Source: Crambe crambe (lineage: Eukaryota > Porifera > Demospongiae > Poecilosclerida > Crambeidae). Taken from it: a stretch of 64,000 nucleotides of DNA. The notes beneath the pieces were generated by a model. It ran no database searches, had not been told where the DNA came from, and saw only the letters and a list, made by a program, of their open reading frames with translations. The stretch lies in contig OZ004583.1 of assembly GCA_963924555.1 (NCBI GenBank), positions 310,001-374,000 of the forward strand, in the 5' to 3' direction. The position numbers and the translations under genes are program-made. Below, piece after piece: positions 4,690 through 54,605 of this stretch (position 1 is its first letter; each line of letters begins with the position of its first letter).

Positions 4690-7570
4690 AACAACAAAAG
4701 CTTCATGCTAAATTGTTATCCAACAAAAATTTTGCACTATTGTTACATAATCACGTGGAGCTTAGATGTTTGGTAATGACCAATCGTGACACTGTATGAC
4801 TGAACGTACACTTTGGCATGAAATGTCATGAGACTGTGTTGATTTAATATTAATCAACTGTTTTAAGAGGATATTAATACAAGATACTGTGCTGAAAGGT
4901 TACATATCATCTAACGTAACCATGGTTGTCATCCTGCGTGAATGTATGTAAACAGTCCAGGTAACTTTCAATGTGTACAAAGGAACACTACATGCTTTCT
5001 GGCTATTATCTGTGACCTTATTGGGAAGTTGAGCAGGAAATACTGTGGAAGCCGAGAAGGGCACTTTGTCACAAGCCAGCATAGTGGACTGTCTAATTAA
5101 ATTTACTACAGCACCTTCATGTTTTGTGCTGCTTTGATTTGTTCCTTCATGTCTTATAGGGGACAGGGAATGGGAACTGGCTCATTCTTATTGGAAGAAG
5201 AGGTTTTGATCAGAAGGAGGTACATATGTGGCACATGCTTTTTTTTTTCCCCCACTTCATTGTGAGATGAAAATCTTGCCAACACAAGACTGAAGGACTA
5301 ATGAGACCTTATGAAGTGGAGGCACCACCAAGCACCCAATTCTACTCTGTATATCCCCCAAGCCCCAATTCTATGTTTTCTATACCATTTGATTTCTGAC
5401 AGTTTGCTGTGTTATGAGGTTACCAACTCCAAGGAAGGCCTGCAAAAGATTATTACAATTATTCAATAATGCATAGCTAACTGACTTGGTATAAAAGTGT
5501 TTACCTTGCTGAATAGGTTCCCCGTGTCACTGATAGGACTAAATCTGTTTAGGATTCTTCCCAGCTGATATATTATGATGATGAGAGGTTCTCCCTCACT
5601 TACAAGTCTCTGGACTGAGTTAATAGCCTCCAATGGACTCTGCACATAATTTTGACACATGCTCTAATATTTGGTACAAGACACTTAATAGCGTTGAACT
5701 CACTTGAGCTTCACTGATAATATTTAATCTCTCATTTATTTTAATCTGCATACAAAGTGAAAGTAAAATTTGATTGCTCATAATGTGCACTATAATAATA
5801 CCTCATTTTGTATGAATGCCTCCATTTGTAATATCTGTGAATCAAGAAGAGGAATTTCATTGGTGAAAACAGTGGTGTGAACCATTGTGGTGGGAGCCAT
5901 AGTGGTTGTTGACATGGTGGTGGGAGTCATAGTGGTTGTGGACATGGTGGTGGGAGCCATAGTGGTTGTTGACATAGTGGTGAGGGCCTCAGTGGTTGTT
6001 GACATAGTGGTGGGAGTCTCATTGGTTGTTGATGCAGTAGTGGGGGTCTCAGTTGCAACTGTTTGGGAGCTATTGTCGTCTATAGTCACTTGAAAACCTT
6101 GGGTTATTGCAATTCGACTGGCAATTTGTTGTCCACCAACATCAGTACCAAATGTAAGATAATTATTCATACATGGTAAAGTGTTAGCACACTCTGTACA
6201 GATCACATTTCCTCTTCTGGGTTCCTTCCATAATGAAGAACTGAAATGAAACAAGAAATCACTTGCACTAATATAATATAATAACTATCAACTCACTTCA
6301 GTGAACAGGATTGCGCATTGTTACAGCCAAATCCATCATAAAATATGTTGGTAGATGTGTTATAGTTGTATATCAAGGTAACATTTACTCTTGCCAGTGC
6401 CCACATGTCTCTGCTTGGTCTATTAAAATCAGCTGTTCCCATCCAGCGGAACTGAACTTCAGTGGTTCGTAGGATGTCCCCACATATATATACAGTGTTT
6501 TGTTCTGCACCAGTAGTGGATCTGCGTATGATTACTGAGTCAGACAAGTCATAACCTCTGATCACTGGTGTGAATTGCTGTTCAGCGAGTAGTTGTAGAG
6601 GGATCCATTGACCACTTCCACTGGTGTCATTACGCATGGCAAACTCTATGGGTTCCCGATTATCAATTCCTCTACAACCTCCTACTCCATTAATATGATT
6701 TATTAGTCCATAATCCACCTCACTATTAAATAATTATTATTGTTAAAGATAAGTGGACAGATGCAACCACAGGCACAAAAAAAAATGACTGTCAAATTAT
6801 TCACCACCAACAATGCAGTCTGGATAAATAGCAACTTTCTGAATCAATTCATGACTAGCTTGAGAAAGGGGAAAGGGGAGGGGAGAGGCAGAAGGGAAAG
6901 AAAAATTGTCCCTATCAATCAGGCTGCTCCATGCATGGTGTATAGTTAGACCTAGCTATTGATTGGACATAATTATAGGGAAAAGAACTTACATTCTAGG
7001 TGTGGTTGTGGAGCAATCTTGTAGTAGAGGAGGACCTTTATCAGAGATGAGCTTTGAATTGCTGTCTCCTGGACACTCCTCACTATTCATATTATTTAAA
7101 AAGTAGAATGCATTAGAAATCACTCCTCTAGCATCTCTTGCGTTGCCATTACAGAAATCATCTCCTAAAGGAACTCTGAAGCAATCGATCACAGATCTGA
7201 TAGTTCCATTAACACTAAAGCTAAATGATTCTACATCCCAGCAGTTGCATTCTCCTCCACCATGCTCCAACTGCAAAAATCTGAACTGCACACCCTCCAC
7301 AGTGCTATCAAAGTCCAAGTAGTGTGATACATCAGATGTTCTATTAACAGGCAATGCATCCAGTGTTATCCAGTCTCCTATAACTGATGTAGTAATTCTG
7401 TACTGGAACTGCACTGAAGTGTTGGTCAAGCCCACCTCATTGCCACCAATGCAGGGAAATCTTGGCACCTCATACAAAGTAAAACTGACTCTAACTAAGC
7501 AGGTTGCCACATCAAGACACACCACGAAGATTAAAGTAGCAACAATAAATGAATGAAGTACAGAGACCAT
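2148..7570 (-). CDS. Adhesion GPCR with reelin-like modules, Thr-rich stalk, GAIN/GPS and 7TM
   Basis: A multi-exon gene. Exon 1 (6993-7570) has a signal peptide and a reelin-like module (VQFRFLQLEHGGGECNCW). Exon 2 (about 6298-6719) holds a second module with VQFRWMGTADFNRPSRDMW. A Thr-rich mucin-like stalk follows (5885-6060), then GAIN-type exons at about 5.5, 4.4, 4.1-4.3 and 3.8-4.0 kb. The GPS is intact: CVFWDF (about 3750), GQWSDRGC, then CECNHLTHFAILL (about 3570-3605), with the usual HL/T self-cleavage step. The helices lie in exons at about 3429-3671, 3014-3374, 2745-2885 and 2398-2662. A tail exon (2148-2309) ends METRSF. By family knowledge this is a surface receptor autoproteolysed at the GPS; ligand and G protein are unknown. 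The 7TM part is very close to the gene at 7920-14221, but the tails differ. Confidence 0.85.
4658..4697. repeat. (CAA)n microsatellite
   Basis: About 13 CAA units, with one interruption near the end, inside a roughly 0.9-kb intron of the adhesion GPCR gene. The rest of that intron (about 4500-5400) shows no feature that I can name. Confidence 0.85.
5885..6030 (-). repeat. Coding minisatellite for Thr/Met-rich stalk
   Basis: A period of about 30 bp is repeated roughly five times. On the minus strand it encodes copies of TTMSTTTMAP, a likely O-glycosylated spacer between the reelin-like modules and the GAIN domain. Repeat number is likely to vary between alleles. Confidence 0.8.
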
Positions 7571-44324: not shown

Positions 44325-45572
44325 ATGGAGGAGAATGAAGAGCCCAATCTCGTCATTCCTCGACCTTTCCCTCACGAACCTCTAGAAACGCTAGAGAGGA
44401 GTCTTAGTTTAGATGTGACTCCTGAAAGAGAACCTGTCAAAAGAAGCAGAGTTCAGAGAAAGAAAAATAGGCGTAAGCTTAACAGAGCAATACTAGGCCT
44501 AGTAGAAAAAGAATCACCTGGATTTCTTTGTTATTTGCAGTATGCTTAGATGAACCACCCTCACACCCTTCAGCTCCTCCTGCACCTTCACGCCTCTCAG
44601 CACCTCAGCTCAACTCCACAGGGCACATCTACAACAAAATACGCACCCTCAAACAAGCACAGGGAATACAAGCTTCAGTGTCCTTGCATGATCTTCCCAC
44701 ACCTTCATCCAATACTTCATCATCCCACCTCAACCCAAGCTCTTCAAAACTCGGATGTCCTGATGTCGGAGACTTAACTGCTGTTGCCAATCAAAGAGCC
44801 TTAAAAGTGAGAAAGTGTTTCATAGATATCTGAGGGAGATTCATTCAGTTGTGTGGCATTGGTTACTGAAAAAGAAGAGGTTTCTCTACACACCAAATTT
44901 CATTTGGTTTCTAAAGTACAGTGGAACCTCCAATTAATGGGATGCAGTCTTTTGTCCTTTGTAGAGAGGTGTCCTCTTTTTGGTGCATAAAGTGCATGAT
45001 TATGTAGAGATTGTCCTTTATTGAGAGCTTTGTCTTCTTTGGGAGTGTCCTCCAGTTCGGTCATCAGTTTACTTGTTTTTACAGGAAGTGAATGTTCCTT
45101 GGAAAATTGCTCGCTATAAGGACCTTGTGCCTGTGAACGTTTCAGAGGAGAGCTTCCAGAAACTCACCTTCAAGCCTCACAGTGTGCAAAGAAAGTTAAA
45201 GCCTGCCTCTGTGGACAAGCCTCGCCTTGCAGATCTGTATCCAACTCTATGTAGCGGTTGTGTGCTCTGCACAGTAGGTTCAGATGTGTATTTGGTTCAG
45301 AGATTTCACTTTCAGAGGTTTTGTGCAGAGAAAATAAACAGTAAAGCCAGTAAAACTATTGAACAGCAAAGGGAAGTACGCATCCCATTAACCCATTTTC
45401 TTTATCACTGTATTTGCCTTAATTTATTGGTTCCAGATTAGTACCCAGTCTGGAATCGGAAGAAGCAGATTGGAGTGGAGTTTCCTCTGCAGGAGTTGAA
45501 CTTGATTTGAAGCCAACGCTGGTTGAATCAACTGATGTCTTTGCTCTGCATTCATTCATGAAAAGTTTATAG
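44325..45572 (+). CDS. Uncharacterised protein, probably disordered N-terminus
   Basis: I do not recognise this gene. Exon 1 (44325-44472) encodes MEENEEPNLVIPRPFPHEPL and a basic end (RSRVQRKKNRR). It joins in frame, by a GTAAGC donor, to a Pro/Ser-rich exon (about 44540-44808; LDEPPSHPSAPPAPS). The next exon (about 45085-45250) encodes EVNVPWKIARYKDLVPVN and KPRLADLYPTL. A later piece has CAEKINSKASKTIEQQ, and the final exon may encode LVPSLESEEADW and a C-terminus MKSL ending at 45572. Phases of the last two introns did not resolve cleanly, so the 3' structure is tentative. A degenerate copy of its 3' part lies at 47960-48297. Confidence 0.55.
44920..45065. mobile_element. MITE remnant of the AGTGGAACCTC family
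   Basis: ACAGTGGAACCTCC at about 44921 and repeated TTGTCCT/GTCCTCTTT words match the element at 16137-16240. The right end is degraded. It lies in an intron of the uncharacterised gene. Confidence 0.4.
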
Positions 45573-45758
45573 TCTCATTCATAATCCCCTCCCTCACTCA
45601 GATTTGTAATAATTGTTGTTGTATCAAATGTCACATGTCTTGAATGACTGCATACTCAGCTAGTACAAGGCATATACTTCCAGAATGTCACTTCAGCGTA
45701 TTATTAATTTGCCCCTTTTTCACGATAATGCGTATTAAACAGCTGTGCTGACAGTACC

Positions 45759-47510
45759 ATGGGTTGTTTGTGTTCCGGGAGGACTCAAGAAGGCAAAGGT
45801 ATGATCGGTAAGAAGATAAACTTGTGGTAGACCTGATTTGGTTTTGCAGAGAGTGATCACATCAAAAATCCCAGTTTCAAGTGGATACCAGAAGCAGTGC
45901 AGTCTCTCACTGTTACCACAAGCCAGAACCAGCAAAAACCCTCTGTGATTCTGAAATGGGAACCACCTGCCAACTGCTCTGATCCCAACCATCCCGACCA
46001 TTATGTGCTCTTCTATTACATCAAAGTGAGTTCAAAGAGCAACGAAGTACTGAGAAAGACAGAGGTTGATGGCAACACGACAGAGATTGAGCTCTCAGAG
46101 AAGGACAAGGTGGAGCCTCTGGAGGAATACATCTTTTCTGTGAAAGCCAAAGGAAGCAATAATGCGATTGGAGTCATCACAAGGGTGGATGGATTCGTTG
46201 GTACATGCCATACCTTACATTGGTGATGATAGATTAACTATCAATAAGAAATGGCTATTTTTGACTCGAAAAATTCACCAGTAAGAAATGTCATCACTCC
46301 TGTAATTAAAAACATGGCTATTACATTTTCGAGTAATGATTAGTACAATGTATCACAGTAATGAATAATTTTCATTGTGAATAAGACAGCAGATATTTTG
46401 GTATGTGATTGTTCTCTGCAGAATGGCATTGTCAGTTACCAGAATGCACAGAAAACAGGATGAAATTGAAGGATGGAATATATGACTTTTGCTCGAGGAA
46501 TCACAAAGCGGACTTTGGTAAGAAACTTACTGCATGCCCTCCAGTTCCGTTGATCTGTGTGCTCTGTGTTTCTGCAGATGGGAGATACTGCTTGTACCCA
46601 GGCTGCCAGAAATTAATAGCCTCAAGCTCCTCTGCTGGATCCCAACCCCAAAGCCCTCTCGTTAGGGAAATGGATCACTTCTGCTCCCATGATCACTACT
46701 ACCAGATTCTAAAACGAGGTACGTTACCTCCGAACGCATTTGATTGAGACCAGCTTTTTGTAGCTCGCTAGCAAACATTTCCTAAAAAGTGTGTGATTCC
46801 ATAATTATGTGTAAGAATTTCCCCTCAAAATTTTAAGAGTGTGTAGGAGTGCTAGCTAATAAATGAATTTCTGGAATTTTGATACTGCTCTCACAAAATA
46901 TTGTATAGAGAGAGATGTCCAAGCTGGTTTCTTTGTGGAAGTTGATTCTGGCTCACAAGAATACAGGGAGATCAAAGAGTACTTTCAGAAGAAGTGGAAG
47001 AAATGCCCCAATATTGATTTGGTACTGGCCATTGTCAATCCCTCCCTCAACGAACAATTCACCAACTACAAAGAAATTCATGGGAACAAGAAGGACAAAA
47101 AGAACTCTATCAAGAAATTCTTCTTCGGCACAAAGTTAGGATGTGATCTTCAGACATACCAAGTCCCTTGCAAGCGTGATAAACTGAGTGACTGTGATGT
47201 GTGTCGTCTAGCACTAAATGGGTTTGAGGACTTGTGTATTGATGGATTGAGATTAGATAAGAATCCGGAAATAGCTCATAGCAAAGCCAAGCCCCATGAT
47301 GATTCCTTCACTTATGGTCTGCTTCTCTGTGATGTGGCGTGTGGAAGCAACATGAAGAAGACGGAATCAGCAGTGAGTATCCAGCGTGATGGTTTTGATG
47401 TGGTGGGGATCAGCAAAGGAGTGGTGAAGAAGTCAACAGATGAAATAGTGCTTTATAATGCTAAAGCATTATGTCCTAGATACATCCTGCTCTATGTACA
47501 GAATAGTTAG
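45759..47510 (+). CDS. FN3 - double zinc finger - PARP-like domain protein, copy 1
   Basis: Five exons. The start MGCLCSG is an N-myristoylation plus palmitoylation type signal. Exon 2 encodes one fibronectin III domain (VQSLTVTTSQ to VDGFVG). Exons 3 and 4 each encode a C-x4-C...F-C-x3-H finger (HCQLPEC with DFCSRNH; YCLYPGC with HFCSHDH). The last exon (from about 46910) encodes a PARP/ADP-ribosyltransferase-like domain: KKFFFGTKLGCDL, CDVCRLALNGFE, GLRLDKNPEIAHSKA, LLLCDVACGS, GFDVVGISKG and DEIVLYNAKALCPRYILLY. In the canonical H-Y-E triad the His is Phe (FGT) and the Tyr appears to be Arg, while Glu is kept. It may be catalytically weak or inactive. Fingers of this kind joined to PARP-like domains are known in fungi and some animals; the FN3 addition is unusual to me. 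A paralogue is at 48546-51095. Confidence 0.75.
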
Positions 47511-47630
47511 GATACAGGTTTATTTTTTACCCCCTTTATTTTTACATAACAAGTTATAATGCAATTCATGATCATTGCAGTCGCAATAAACAGGTTAGAA
47601 GCATTTTAACTTTGCTAGAGGTGGAACTGC

Positions 47631-47852
47631 ATGGCTCAAAAACTGGAGACCAGGTGGCAAGATTTGAGATTGGACACATTTTTGCAAAGGAATCTGTCCT
47701 GGAAGGACTATGAGAATCTGAACCTTGTGTTATCCTCTCTCCAGAGGAGTACAGACACATTGTACTGGGACAGATCTGCCTCTTCAGCACAAGACCCTTC
47801 AAAGAGCCTCAAAATCTGAAATTAGTGGACATAGTGTCGATACACACAAAGT
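47631..47852 (+). pseudogene. C12orf56-like first-exon copy, frameshifted
   Basis: It copies 51802-52044 (MAQKLETRWQDLRLDTFLQR, then a small deletion after KDYE that shifts frame), reaching a stop within about 60 codons. No downstream exons follow. It is the 3' edge of the first duplicated block. Confidence 0.8.
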
Positions 47853-47959
47853 AAGCCTTGGTACCATGGCAACAGCATAACAAAGATTGCCCACCTTTAA
47901 GAACTAGATGAAGAGGCAACACCACTTGGACTTTTCAATATTAATCGTGGGCATGTACT

Positions 47960-48297
47960 GATGTGTCGGTGTCCTTTCATGATCTTCCTTCATCCAACCC
48001 AGTAGGTTCAGGTGTATGATTTCTCTTTCAGAGTCTTTTGTGCAGAGAAAATAAACAATAAAGCAAAACAACTGATGAACAAAATAAGCATAAGCATTAA
48101 TTGTAAGAATAACATTTTTACTCTAGCAATTTTATCACTGTATTTGCTTGGTTCCAGATTAGTACCCAGTCTGGAATCGGAAGAAGCAGATTGGAATGGA
48201 GGTTCCTCTGAGGGAGTTGAACTTGATTTGAAACCAATGCTGGTTGAATCAACTGATGTCTTTGTTCTGCATCCATTCATGAAAAGTCATTCGTAAC
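47960..48297 (+). pseudogene. 3' fragment of the uncharacterised gene at 44325-45572
   Basis: It copies parts of 44690-44760 and 45280-45572, including CAEKINNKAK and LVPSLESEEADWNGG, with the middle deleted. Without 5' exons it is probably non-functional. It is the 5' edge of the second duplicated block. Confidence 0.75.
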
Positions 48298-48545
48298 CCC
48301 CTCCCTTACTCAGATTTGTAATCAATATTGTTGACTTAGCTACTAATACTCTGATGTGTGAATGACTGCACACTCAGCTAGCATACTTTCAATAATGAAT
48401 AATAGCAGGAACAAGCAAGGCATATATTTCCAGAATACGTCATCTCTCAGCGTATTAATTTGCAGAAGGACATAAATGATACGCCCCCCTTTTCGCGGAA
48501 AGCTAAAGCTTTAAAGAGCGATAATGCGTCTCGACTGACGGCGTC

Positions 48546-51095
48546 ATGGGTTGCTTATCTTGCAGGACTAAAGAAGGCAAAGGTATGATCGATCAAAAGA
48601 TAACTTGTGGTAGACTAGAAGTCGAGAATTACGTCATGATAGTTATTATAGGCTTGTTAGTAGTGTATAAGGTAAAGCGGGGTGACTTGGGACACAGGTT
48701 AACTTGGGACAGTGGAGTTATATTTTAATCTTGTTTCGAGATTACTATGAGTTTCAAGATCTTATTTTGCACACATAAACATTTATGCTTTGTCTCTCTC
48801 TGAAGCCAGTCTAGAGTGCTTTGGTTACTCTGTTTGTAATAAGCAGACCTAAACACTCTGCTGATTTTATAAGACTGCAAGAAAAAACTTAATAAACTAA
48901 CTTCAAACTTACTGAACTGATTTATCAATATTCTACTCACTGAGATAATGCTGCATAATGATCTCTGTGTTTTATAAAAGTGATCAGTCAGCAAAACATG
49001 CATAGTGCACTGTTTAAGCTTTATCAAAATTGCATGGACATGCAGTGTCCCAAGTTATCCTGAAAGGGATTTCTGCATGCTACACATTGGTGAATTGTAG
49101 CCAATTAATTAGTAAGCAATACCAATCATCTTTAGCTCAGCCTGGGACTAGAAAGATTACTCTATCTCTTGCAACTTAAAGCTTGTTTATAGCTAAAGCG
49201 GTTGCAGAGATATCATTATTTGTAGTAAGAGTGTCCCAAGTTACCCCAATCTACCTTACTGCTTTGATTGTTGCACTGCAGAGAGTGGAAGGACGTCTGC
49301 AGTAGATAATCGCAGCCGCTCGAGAACTCTCAGTCTCAAGGTCCTAGAATCCTGGACACCAGAAGCAGTGCAGTCTCTCACTGTTACCACAAGTCAGAAT
49401 CAGCACAAACCCTCTGTGATTCTGAAATGGGAACCTCCTGCCAACTGTTCCCATGATCCCAGCCGTAATGTGCTCTTCTATTACATCAAAATAAGCTCAA
49501 AGATCAGCAACCAAGTGCTGAGAGAGACAGAGGTTGATGGCAACACGATGGAGATTGAGCTCTCAGAGAAGGACAAGGTGGAGCCTCTAGAGGAATACAT
49601 CTTTTCTGTGCAAGCCAAAGGAAGCAATGATGTTATTGGAGATCTCAATATGGTGGATGGATTTGTTGGTACATGACCTATTCTTCTATACCTTGCACAC
49701 ATTGGTGATGACACATTGGTACAATGCATGATAAGAAATGACTTGACATTTCCCTTTTTAATGTGTTAGTGATTGAATGTTTAGATTAATGATGGATATA
49801 AATATGGTTTTGAGTAATAGTTAATTGGGAACTTTTCATTCCTGTTTACAGTTTTCATTTTGTTGTTACTTGGAAATAATTCATTGTGAATAAGATTTCC
49901 CTATTATTTTTTGTATGTGATTGTTCTCTGCAGAATGGCATTGTCGGTTACCAGAATGCACGAAGAGCAGGATGAAATTGGAGGATGGGATATATGACTT
50001 TTGCTCAAGGAATCACAAAGTGGACTTTGGTAAGAGACTTATACATACATGCCCTCAAGTTCCATTGATTGTGTGCTCTGTGTTTCTACAGATGAGAGAT
50101 ACTGTTTGTACCCAGGCTGCCAGAAATCAGCAGTGACAGTTTCACCTACCTCGAGCTCCTCCCAACCCCAAAGCCTTCTTGTTAGGGAAATGGATCACTT
50201 CTGCTCCCACGATCACTACTACCAGATTCTAAAAAAAGGTACGTTACCTCCTGACACATTTATGGAGACCAGCTTTGTAGTTAACTATTCTTGCTAGCTG
50301 AAATATTATTCAAGAGTGTGTATAGATTCCAACTTGATAATTTAGGAGTGTGTAGGAGAATTTCTGGAATTTTGAAGTAGAAAGTTAATACTTCTCACAT
50401 GTGCACTCACACACTAAATTGATGAGTAGATATTGTATAATATTATTATTATAGAGAGAGATGTCCAAGCTGGTTTCTTTGTGGAAGTTGATTCTGGCTC
50501 ACAAGAATACAGGGAGATCGAAGAGCACTTTCAGAAGAAGTGGAAGAAATATCCCAATATTGCTTTGGTACTGGCCATCATCAATCCCTCCCTCAACGAA
50601 CAATTCACCAACTACAAAGAAATTCATGGGGACAAAAAGGATATCAAGAGCCCTATCAAGAAGGACACAAGGAGCACTGTCAGGAAGGACAGCAAGAACT
50701 CTGTCAAGAAATTCTTCTTTGGCACAAAGTTAGGATGTGATCTTCAGACATACCAAGTCCCTTGCAAGCATGATAAACTGAGTGGCTGTGATGTGTGTCA
50801 TCTAGCACTGAATGGGTTTGAGGACTTGTGTATTGATGGAATGAGATTGGATAAGAATCCGGAAATAGCTCATAGCAAAGCAAAGCCCCATGAAGATTCC
50901 TTCACTTATGGTTTGCTTCTCTGTGATGTGGTGTGTGGAAGCAACATGAAGAAAGTGAAATCAGCAGTGAATATCCAGCGTGATGGTTTCGATGCAGTGG
51001 GGATCAGCAAAGGAGTGGTGAAGAATTCAACAGATGAAATAGTGCTTTATAATGCTAAAGCATTATGTCCTAGATACATCCTGCTCTATGTATAG
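48546..51095 (+). CDS. FN3 - double zinc finger - PARP-like domain protein, copy 2
   Basis: The same five-exon plan as copy 1. The start MGCLSCRTKEGK again fits dual acylation. Exon 2 has an added Ser/Arg stretch (SGRTSAVDNRSRSRTLSL) before the FN3 domain. The two C-x4-C...F-C-x3-H fingers are kept (HCRLPEC/DFCSRNH and YCLYPGC/HFCSHDH). The PARP-like exon (from about 50455) carries a Lys/Asp/Ser repeat insert before KKFFFGTKLGCDL and ends at LLYV. The same two triad positions are changed (FGT; GMRLDKNP), and DEIVLY keeps Glu. Intron 1 is about 690 bp because of a 587-bp inverted-repeat transposon; in copy 1 that intron is about 50 bp. Both copies are open, so both are probably functional genes. 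Confidence 0.75.
48670..49256. mobile_element. 587-bp non-autonomous DNA transposon with inverted ends
   Basis: About 26 bp at 48670-48695 is inverted at 49231-49256 with few mismatches (core GACTTGGGACAC / GTGTCCCAAGTT). TA flanks both ends (48668-48669 and 49257-49258), fitting a TA target duplication. A partial inner copy of the end lies near 49041. No transposase frame is convincing. It is absent from the paralogous intron at about 45800. Confidence 0.8.
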
Positions 51096-51961
51096 TTAGG
51101 ATACAGGTTTTTATGTTCTCGTTTTTAAAACTTTTTAACCCTTTTTATTAAAATTGAACTACCCATTGAGCTCTTTTGGATCCCCCATCGCGAAATTCAT
51201 GAGGTAATCATAGATAAACACTCGCGAGTTCATCTGCTGATGAATGCTCAATGGACCGGTTAGAAGTATTTTAACTATATAGAGGCCAACTGCATGGCTC
51301 AAAAACTGGAGACCAGGCGGCAAGATTTGAGGTTGGACACGTTTTTGCGAAGGAATCTGTCCTGGAAGGACTATGAGAGAATTATCATCTCTGAACCTTG
51401 TGTTATCCTCTCTCCAGAGGAGAAACGCGTTTACAGACACGTTATACTGGGACATGAAGAAAGTGAAATCAGCAGTGAATATCCAGCGTGATGGTTTCGA
51501 TGCAGTGGGGATCAGCAAAGGAGTGGTGAAGAATTCAACAGATGAAATAGTGCTTTATAATGCTAAAGCATTATGTCCTAGATACATCCTGCTCTATGTA
51601 TAGTTAGGATACAGGTTTTTATGTTCTCGTTTTTAAAACTTTTTAACCCTTTTTATTAAAATTGAACTACCCATTGAGCTCTTTTGGATCCCCCATCGCG
51701 AAATTCATGAGGTAATCATAGATAAACACTCGCGAGTTCATCTGCTGATGAATGCTCAATGGACCGGTTAGAAGTATTTTAACTATATAGAGGCCAACTG
51801 CATGGCTCAAAAACTGGAGACCAGGCGGCAAGATTTGAGGTTGGACACGTTTTTGCGAAGGAATCTGTCCTGGAAGGACTATGAGAGAATTATCATCTCT
51901 GAACCTTGTGTTATCCTCTCTCCAGAGGAGAAACGCGTTTACAGACACGTTATACTGGGAC
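50946..51961. repeat. Two exact-looking direct copies of a 508-bp unit
   Basis: Units 50946-51453 and 51454-51961 look identical throughout by eye. Each holds the last 50 codons of PARP-like copy 2, the spacer, and the first about 53 codons of the C12orf56-like gene. The junction shares only the dinucleotide AC. 508 is not a multiple of three. It is either a very recent tandem duplication or an assembly artefact. Confidence 0.9.
51294..51603 (+). pseudogene. Extra C12orf56-like exon start fused to extra PARP-like gene end
   Basis: Bases 51294-51453 repeat the first 53 codons of the C12orf56-like gene but lack its donor and run into 51454-51603, a second copy of the PARP-like gene 3' end in another frame. 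The first frame stops at 51491. Neither part is a complete gene. Confidence 0.8.
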
Positions 51962-54605
51962 AGAACTGCCTCTTCAGCACAGAGGACCCTCCAAAGAGCC
52001 TCAAAACTGTTCTGAAATTAGTGGACATAGAATCAATACACAAGGTAAGCCAGGACTAACACTTTGGTACCATGGCAACAGCATAACAAAGATTGCCCAC
52101 CTTATAAGCTCATCATAGACCTAGATGAAGGGGCAACACTACTTGGACTTTTCAATATTAAATGTGTTATTTAGTGGTTCCTGCATGGAATATTATTATA
52201 ACTGATGTTGATTTTGAAGCTGGAAGATCTACCAGACTTTCTAAGTGGAGAGGAACAACATAACACTGTCCATATTCAGATCTGTTACACAAGACCAGCA
52301 TCACCTGCAGCGAGAGAGAGGCGATTCCTCAGTTCTCTCGGCAGCAGAAAATCTCCTGTCCCAAAAAGACATCTTAAAGAGAAGGGGGAGGAGCAGCAAG
52401 AAGAAGAGAGGTTGTCTCCTGGTAGCAACGTAGAGTTCAGAATACAAAGTGCTGAAATGGAGAAGACCTCACCAACTAGTCGAAGAAGCCCACAATTATC
52501 ACATCAGGAGAGTAAATATCACCAACTAGTTACAGTGAGCAGTAGCAGCAGTAGTCGGTCCAGAATGCAAAGGAGCCCAACACAGAGAAGCCCACCAGGA
52601 ATATTTGTAGCTCGCTCTAACTTAGAGGTTGCACATTACAAAGATGGTGGGAGTAGTAGCAATGACTATGATGAAGAATCGCCCTTAAATAAAGAGCCAT
52701 CTCATTCACCATATGAGCTGAGAAGAGCGAGTTTATCAAGCAAAATGATAATGAAACATGAAGCAGAAGATGCCCAGAAGAAGTACAGTAGTAGTAGCAG
52801 ACACCTCACTGTTTCACCAAAGCACCTTGCATCTTCTACTGGGAATCTGAGCGTCAAAGACAGAACCTCGTCAATCAACTCTCTATCATCAACTTGGAGC
52901 AAAACTTCAAGAGATACGAGTCTTGGCTCAACCTCTGGGACGTTGAGTTTCAAAGAAAGAACTTCATCTCAACCCGAGTTGCGAGTTGGAGGAGAAAACC
53001 CTAACCCTTCTGATGTCCTTTCTCTCTCTCTTGACTATGCCACCACTAGCAAATCTCTTACAAAGTCTCAAAGCTTTGGTTCTAGTACTGGTTTTCTGAG
53101 TACCAATGTATCAAGGGAGGTTGTAACAGGGGCTGCATCAAAGACTGAGCTGGCTGTGGCTGACCTGTACATCCTAAAGCAAGCCACAGACTTCTATCAC
53201 CGCTTGAAGGCATCCTGGGAGAGTGTCAAAATTGTAAGCGTGCAGATTTTTCCAGTTTGTGTTCAGAGAAAGGGGAAGATGTAGCAGATGTTGCTTACTA
53301 AAGTTACACGTAATGAATGGACATAGGTAGTATGATGATTAGTACATCTATTGAACATTGCTATTGTCCTCCCTTCTGGAAGTGTTCTCAACATCATTTC
53401 TTTTGTCCACAGAATCAAGTGCTGAAAGAAGGGCTAGGGAATAGTGATCATGATTCCACTCATGTTAGCAGTGCTAAATCTCAGTGAGTATTGTCTTGCT
53501 CTCTTTCTTTATTCAGTCCATCTTTTTCTTTTTTTAGTGATCATTTCTGTCAACAGTTTTGCACGCTGAAGGAGGATCTTCTCTCAGCTACTCAACTGGA
53601 GAGTTGTGCTGAATTGGCTCAAGAGCTCACCAGTGCTTGCCAGAAATACTTTTTCATAAAGACACTATTCTGGGAGGTCAGTCAGTTAGGGGATGACCCA
53701 GTGTTCAGTAAAGCATATCTTATTCTTCTACATAATATAGGACCCAGAAATTCTTGAGTTCTGCACCAAACAGTTGGACCATTACTTGCGAACATGCAAG
53801 TCACATTCAAAGCAGCTGGAGGATCATGTGGTGTATGTTGGAGGCAAATAAGAAAAAAAACAACAACTTAAATTTCTTCCTTTAGGTATGCCATCATTCT
53901 GATGGATTTGCTGTCCCAAATGATGAGAGAGGTCTTCACAAGCAAGAAGTTGTCACATCTGACTTGCAACAGTGGTCAACCCCTCCTCTCCTTAGCACGA
54001 GCTATCACTTACCACTTCCCCCTGCTTGACATCATTGGCCACACCCATGGAGTAGAGCTCACCGAGAAAGCCTGTGCTTTGGTGTATGAATTGATGCTAA
54101 CTGCTGACCAAGCCCGGTGGCCACTGGCTAAAAAGACAAATGTTTCCACCTCTTGGTTTGTGAAAACTCTTGCCAACAGTGATGAATTGGTATGGGTATA
54201 TGTACGTATAATTATGGGTGATCGAAACATTTACCCCCTCCCCCTCTCTTCCGTCCAGCATCACTTTTACTTGGCTATGCTTCAGTATGCTTCACAGGTC
54301 CTGTCCAATTCCCATATAATGAGTCCACAGGAACAGGTGACCCTTTACCAGATTGGAATCGTCCTCTCCACCTTGCTAAGGAGCTCTCCATTTGTAGTCC
54401 AATTCTTTAAACAACACTTCACAGAGGAATTCAAGTAAGAGAAGTATTGGGTGTGGCCAATTAATGAACTCGCTCCTAACAATATTTTTGTAGGTATTAC
54501 ATCAATACAAGTAAATTGAAGGTACTTTCAGGTCACTACCCTCTTATCACTGACACCCTAAAACTCCTCCACACCTGCAAATCAAAGGTACTCTTCTCCA
54601 AGTGA
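51802..54605 (+). CDS. Uncharacterised Ser-rich protein, tentatively C12orf56-like
   Basis: About seven exons. Exon 1 encodes LDTFLRRNLSWKDYERI, EPCVILSPEEKRVYRHVILG and PPKSLKTVLKLVDIESIHK; the style matches the N-terminus I recall for vertebrate C12orf56, but that is from memory. The next exon (52220-53234) is long, starts LEDLPDFLSGEEQ and is mostly disordered Ser/Arg-rich sequence. The helical C-terminal part has ADLYILKQATDFYHRLKASW, LMDLLSQMMREVFTSKKLSH, LLDIIGHTHGVELTEKA, VSTSWFVKTLANSDEL and a last exon ending HTCKSKVLFSK. The function is unknown. Its 5' exon is also present at 47631 (broken) and 51294 (extra copy), so the start lies in a duplication hot spot. Confidence 0.65.

Follow-up and report, generated by a model that had tools for sequence, protein, structure and literature searches.

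Are the two tandem genes at positions 45759..51095 of a 64,000-nucleotide stretch of Crambe crambe DNA (GCA_963924555.1, contig OZ004583.1, positions 310,001 to 374,000; the whole stretch is called the window, and its coordinates are used below) still genes for enzymes, and what could their C-terminal domain do if it no longer uses NAD+? An earlier note, made from the sequence alone, had described two lipid-anchored paralogues with an FN3 domain, zinc fingers and a PARP-like fold with an altered catalytic triad. The layout was confirmed in both genes, which share an MGC start, a probable FN3 domain, two fingers and a C-terminal domain resembling ADP-ribosyltransferases (ARTs). Gene 1 (45759..47510) has five exons with GT-AG introns and an open frame of 409 aa ending in the stop at 47508-47510. 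Its tandem paralogue, gene 2 (48546..51095), has five exons and 435 aa; both genes, their parts and the partial third copy described below lie on the + strand. The proposal of a pseudoenzyme is well supported, beyond the argument of the note, as the pair has lost the loop preceding the Tyr strand and, of the H-Y-Y-E residues, three out of four, and these losses extend almost completely over a whole clade.

The C-terminal domain and its altered site

The last exon of gene 1 (46909..47510) is assigned to a pseudo-ART domain on the basis of its fold model, the clade tree and the lost residues; that of gene 2 lies at 50455..51095. With the C termini LLYVQNS and LLYV the ART domain closes the protein. 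In the structure model the last exon is an ART fold, and a second triad at other positions was not seen. Against Pfam PF00644 (cut-off 26.7 bits) the last exons of the pair gave 13.7 bits and no match. The exon sequences P0048 and P0057, counted as win1 and win2, start with about 15 and 8 intron-derived residues, and residues 1-15 of the model mostly have a predicted local distance difference test score below 50. A chance resemblance to PARP was rejected on the ART fold together with the family tree, and a mis-placed triad on the H-Y-Y-E relatives, which align at the same columns.

The four site residues are known as the H-Y-Y-E tetrad, the second Tyr of which serves in nicotinamide stacking (PMC7955679; this and the other papers are cited from excerpts). 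Our alignment holds 94 rows, namely the 15 members of the clade described below, 75 others (10 loci of the same genome and 65 database rows) and four fragments kept outside the 75 (P0079, H-Y-Y-C; P0081, H-Y-Y-gap; P0082, Y-Y-Y-E; P0083, H-Y-Y-gap). Both window genes read F-R-K-E and all 75 others H-Y-Y-E, in a set of partly non-independent rows (the distances of P0011 and P0021 to loci of the same genome are 0-0.006, and P0006 and P0007 also have close neighbours among these loci). As the earlier note had it, the His of HGT is Phe in both genes (F282 in gene 1, codon 47124..47126; gene 2, 50718-50720) and the Glu is kept (E388, 47442..47444; 51036-51038). The Tyr of the G-x-Y strand was correctly read as Arg for the window pair (R324, 47250..47252; 50844-50846), but Arg is not a feature of the clade, where Thr is the commonest residue at this position (7/15).

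Across the clade His is present in one row of 15 and neither Tyr in any, the second being replaced by Lys in 14, while Glu occurs in 13. The R-F-G segment preceding the Tyr strand is missing in all 15 rows, and the loop from the fourth of four conserved Cys to the Tyr position has 15-17 residues in the clade versus 22-26 in the others. From these losses we infer that both window ART domains are inactive. The four Cys just after HGT (C94, C103, C111 and C114 of P0048, window 47142-47204) occur throughout the clade (15/15) and, outside it, in 74 or 75 of the 75 others. Present in active-looking and dead members alike, they likely form a metal site within the ART domain. The metal site of tankyrase lies elsewhere.

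A conserved clade of altered ART domains

The 15 clade members form one group with a support of 100/100 in a tree of 89 rows, calculated without the four fragments, P0062 and P0068, and the clade stem measures 1.52 changes per column. When a distant PARP from this genome is placed deepest in the tree, the clade nests among H-Y-Y-E sequences. Support for the branches which put it there ranges from 87/89 to 98/89; according to a program warning P0071, the sister of the clade, is on a long branch. The ancestors would have been catalytically competent-looking finger-ART proteins with H-Y-Y-E, in which both Tyr and the R-F-G loop were probably lost before the 15 sequences split. The His may have gone after both Tyr, maybe slightly later, because P0075 still carries it; the site of this member (H-M-N-T) is broken despite the retained His.

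At E<=1, eight of the 15 members match PF00644 (best 3.9e-4). A search for full-length proteins returned three relatives, all of 224-266 aa. Searches for related loci in viral_contigs and genome_contigs gave 19 and 44 stretches, none of which was confirmed, and a phage tblastn with a paralogue as query gave a single match (E 0.5).

The tandem duplication with its third, partial copy may suggest that the genes are decaying pseudogenes or an oddity confined to this genome, as may the ART exon, which taken alone is without significant purifying selection between the pair (dN/dS 0.47, p 0.067). However, each copy has five open exons with conserved splice sites, and dN is below dS across the whole protein (dN/dS 0.39, p 8e-6). 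The 13 relatives outside the window, which are 43-55% identical to gene 1, have moreover lost both Tyr in 13 and His in 12 cases. This explanation is thus extremely unlikely, and a pseudogene pair was rejected on the open frames and dN<dS. The lowest dN/dS values between the two genes are those of the fingers (0.21 and 0.30).

New residues are invariant in the clade as well, namely Asp, Asn and Pro of an L-D-K-N-P strand and the Cys of C-P-R-Y. Conservation of this kind in a dead pocket (Glu 13/15, Lys 14/15, Asp 15/15) needs a reason, and an atypical enzyme or ligand binder would supply one: the new Lys, together with the Glu and the L-D-K-N-P strand, would make up a re-purposed site with a different use of NAD+ or for another nucleotide. 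This is quite unlikely, as the Glu is missing in P0077 and P0075, the second-position residue is unconstrained (T, R, K, M or P) and the pre-strand loop is deleted. Rather unlikely, too, is a broader reading of the [F/Y]-x-K-E clade as a re-purposed ART. Once NAD+ binding was lost, its pocket would have been rebuilt from the Lys that replaces the stacking Tyr, L-D-K-N-P and the retained Glu for a different ligand or partner, and in the present genome FN3 and acylation would place it at the membrane as a new receptor-proximal signalling protein.

N terminus, FN3 domain and zinc fingers

Exon 1 of gene 1 (45759..45798; MGCLCSGRTQEGK) and of gene 2 (48546..48582; MGCLSCRTKEGK) encode the starts MGCLCS and MGCLSC, which have, read by eye, a Ser or Cys at position 6. 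An MGC start with Ser or Cys at this position is the rule for dual acylation. Gly2 is probably myristoylated and Cys3 S-acylated, with C5 as a further predicted S-acylation site in gene 1; acylation is predicted for gene 2 likewise. In-frame stops upstream of the MGC start (in gene 1 a TAA as the 11th codon upstream) and the hydrophilic N terminus add to the plausibility of a membrane tether for both proteins, as far as this can be judged from sequence. Anchored in this way the protein would face the cytosol, so that the FN3 domain, if real, would be intracellular.

The probable FN3 domain is encoded by exon 2 (45850..46200 in gene 1, 49282..49668 in gene 2). Against the Pfam fn3 profile, with its cut-off of 25 bits, the two exons gave 23.5 bits (6.5e-5) and 21.4 bits (3e-4); the FN3 letters prepared from them extended 8 and 2 residues into the intron. 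When the whole gene 1 protein was compared with Pfam (E<=10, although few matches above about 0.1 pass the filters), fn3 was the sole match; for gene 2 the scan covered the FN3 and ART exons. An FN3 profile found no significant match among PDB sequences (best E 0.5, titin), and an FN3 search returned the pieces of the window alone.

A pattern scan gave two C-x4-C..C-x3-H fingers per gene. Those of gene 1 are at 46430..46504 (CQLPEC..DFCSRNH, within the exon 46422-46517) and 46589..46696 (CLYPGC..HFCSHDH, within the exon 46578-46718), those of gene 2 at 49942..50016 and 50103..50216. By their pattern they would bind zinc.

Relatives with an intact site

At least ten further ART-exon loci are found in the same genome. 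All are H-Y-E and were found at 30-35% identity, and the six that were run against PF00644 all exceed its cut-off. A pattern scan for C-x4-C..C-x3-H fingers detected them on the same strand as the ART exon, upstream of it, in two of nine fetched stretches (L010 and L011) and not in the other seven, so the combination of fingers and ART holds for some paralogues. A full-length protein of 433 aa, P0031 (Em0001g2147a), has fingers and an H-Y-Y-E ART but no FN3 match; judging by its locus name we take it to be from Ephydatia muelleri. Similar finger-ART proteins presumably occur in fungi.

The finger-ART family (for example C5:3786689, C5:3796545 and P0031) stands in one ART tree with the window pair and has the upstream fingers and the four Cys after HGT in common with it. 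In contrast to the pair it has kept H-Y-Y-E and the R-F-G loop. For the FN3 exon of the pair, no other hit below E 0.02 was found in the genome. As to the earlier claim of an undescribed layout, none of the papers listed by searches of open-licence full texts describes this layout or the clade, but fingers plus ART without FN3 are a standing family. What is special is hence confined to the added FN3 and MGC and to the inactive site. In the excerpts of two PARP surveys (PMC4245714, PMC2964712) the word 'fibronectin' is absent; they mention sponge PARPs and fungal clades, and describe neither the finger-ART family nor the dead clade.

The presence of ten same-family H-Y-E loci in the genome would suit a regulatory decoy, a special case of an adaptor, in which the pseudo-ART pairs with the active-looking H-Y-Y-E paralogues or competes for their substrates at the membrane. 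The retention of the HGT Gly (14/15) and Thr (13/15), of the four Cys and of the C-terminal P-x-Y strand in the clade also fits. However, the clade is old and divergent, as seen from the 27-31% identity of gene 1 to these ten loci, and we consider a decoy possible rather than probable.

With 42 exon-level matches to PF00644, ART genes are numerous in this genome (G000). Several lie in local clusters (C1:7283397-7385672, C5:3763549-3800978, C6, C9 and C19). In L011 (C5:3793001-3800500) the + strand has another four fingers with this pattern at 5981-7362, followed by a partial PARP match at C5:3800739, which is probably another, intron-split finger-ART gene.

Comparison with known pseudo-PARPs

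Inactive pseudo-PARPs are known from human (ZAP, TASOR) and Arabidopsis (RCD1) (PMC7532188), and a pseudo-ART of the LRRC9 type has been described (PMC7955679). ZAP-L (PARP13) also combines a lipid anchor, zinc fingers and a dead C-terminal PARP domain (PMC8568172), although the anchor of the window pair is predicted. ZAP differs in its CCCH RNA-binding fingers, its WWE domains (PMC10450202) and its C-terminal CaaX farnesylation. Neither CCCH fingers nor WWE were found in the filtered gene 1 Pfam scan, and both window proteins lack a C-terminal CaaX box; instead they have C-x4-C..C-x3-H fingers, a probable FN3 domain and predicted N-terminal acylation. The triad is Y-Y-V in ZAP (PMC8568172) and F-R-E in the window pair. 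The nearest working model is ZAP-L, whose dead PARP domain and farnesyl anchor act together in supporting cofactor binding (PMC8568172).

TASOR resembles the pair in its ART fold, degenerate NAD+ site and non-catalytic role, but has another architecture, and its key residues are all hydrophobic but one (PMC7532188). The LRRC9-type domains have, like the clade, lost His, Tyr and the stacking Tyr, the His being most often Tyr (PMC7955679). They are flanked by leucine-rich repeats, whereas the Pfam scan of gene 1 gave no match to such repeats and its ART domain is the last one of the protein.

In this genome a single family has both active-looking and dead members, and the loss falls mainly on one well-supported branch. 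That the dead branch stayed conserved offers a clean natural comparison for the role of an ART fold after the use of NAD+ has ended. If the acylation is real, the combination of anchor, fingers and dead PARP parallels ZAP-L from different parts, by convergent evolution.

Proposed function

We favour, as the probable reading, a membrane-anchored adaptor, that is an acylated cytosolic protein with a probable FN3 domain, fingers and a pseudo-ART interaction surface. Myristoylation at Gly2 and S-acylation at Cys3 would hold it on the membrane, and the fingers and FN3 would recognize the target. The ART-fold domain would have lost the usual mode of NAD+ binding; since the NAD+ contacts are lost, it is most simply seen as a docking surface. 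The partners might be active paralogues, which the protein would regulate.

Several points weigh against this adaptor. The MGC start is known from two young paralogues only, and the FN3 scores of both exons are under the Pfam cut-off. The alignment used for the structure model took in H-Y-Y-E relatives, and the profile of the clade itself gave no significant match to PDB sequences (best E 0.042, PARP4). Glu in 13 of 15 rows is more than a pure scaffold needs, and new chemistry is possible. Selection on the ART exon alone is not significant, and its low dS (only 0.098 between the pair) suggests that its high pair identity is due to recent gene conversion.

The earlier note had also considered an ADP-ribosyl reader, perhaps in innate immunity. 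The pseudo-PARP PARP13 binds poly(ADP-ribose), yet via WWE and not via its dead ART pocket (PMC10450202), and the filtered Pfam scan of gene 1 gave neither a macro nor a WWE match. The loss of the NAD+-contact residues also speaks against a nucleotide ligand in the pocket. A reader is therefore very unlikely and was rejected as having no support in the data, which give no evidence for a role in innate immunity either.

Duplications and neighbouring genes

The final part of gene 2 and its 3' flank, together with some of the following gene's first exon, are covered by a direct repeat with a length of about 515 bases (50944-51458 versus 51452-51965, 99.8% identical). This repeat is a recent duplication or an assembly artefact. 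It contains the third, partial copy of the 3' end of the ART exon (51452..51603), which is no separate gene. The upstream flanks of both genes are also duplicated (45302-45663 and 48018-48381, 79% identical) and mark the duplication unit. The neighbouring gene (51772-53284, two open frames joined) matches Pfam DUF4551 (2.5e-37). Its first exon was duplicated together with the tandem pair, and copies of the 5' exon are found near 47619 and 51264.
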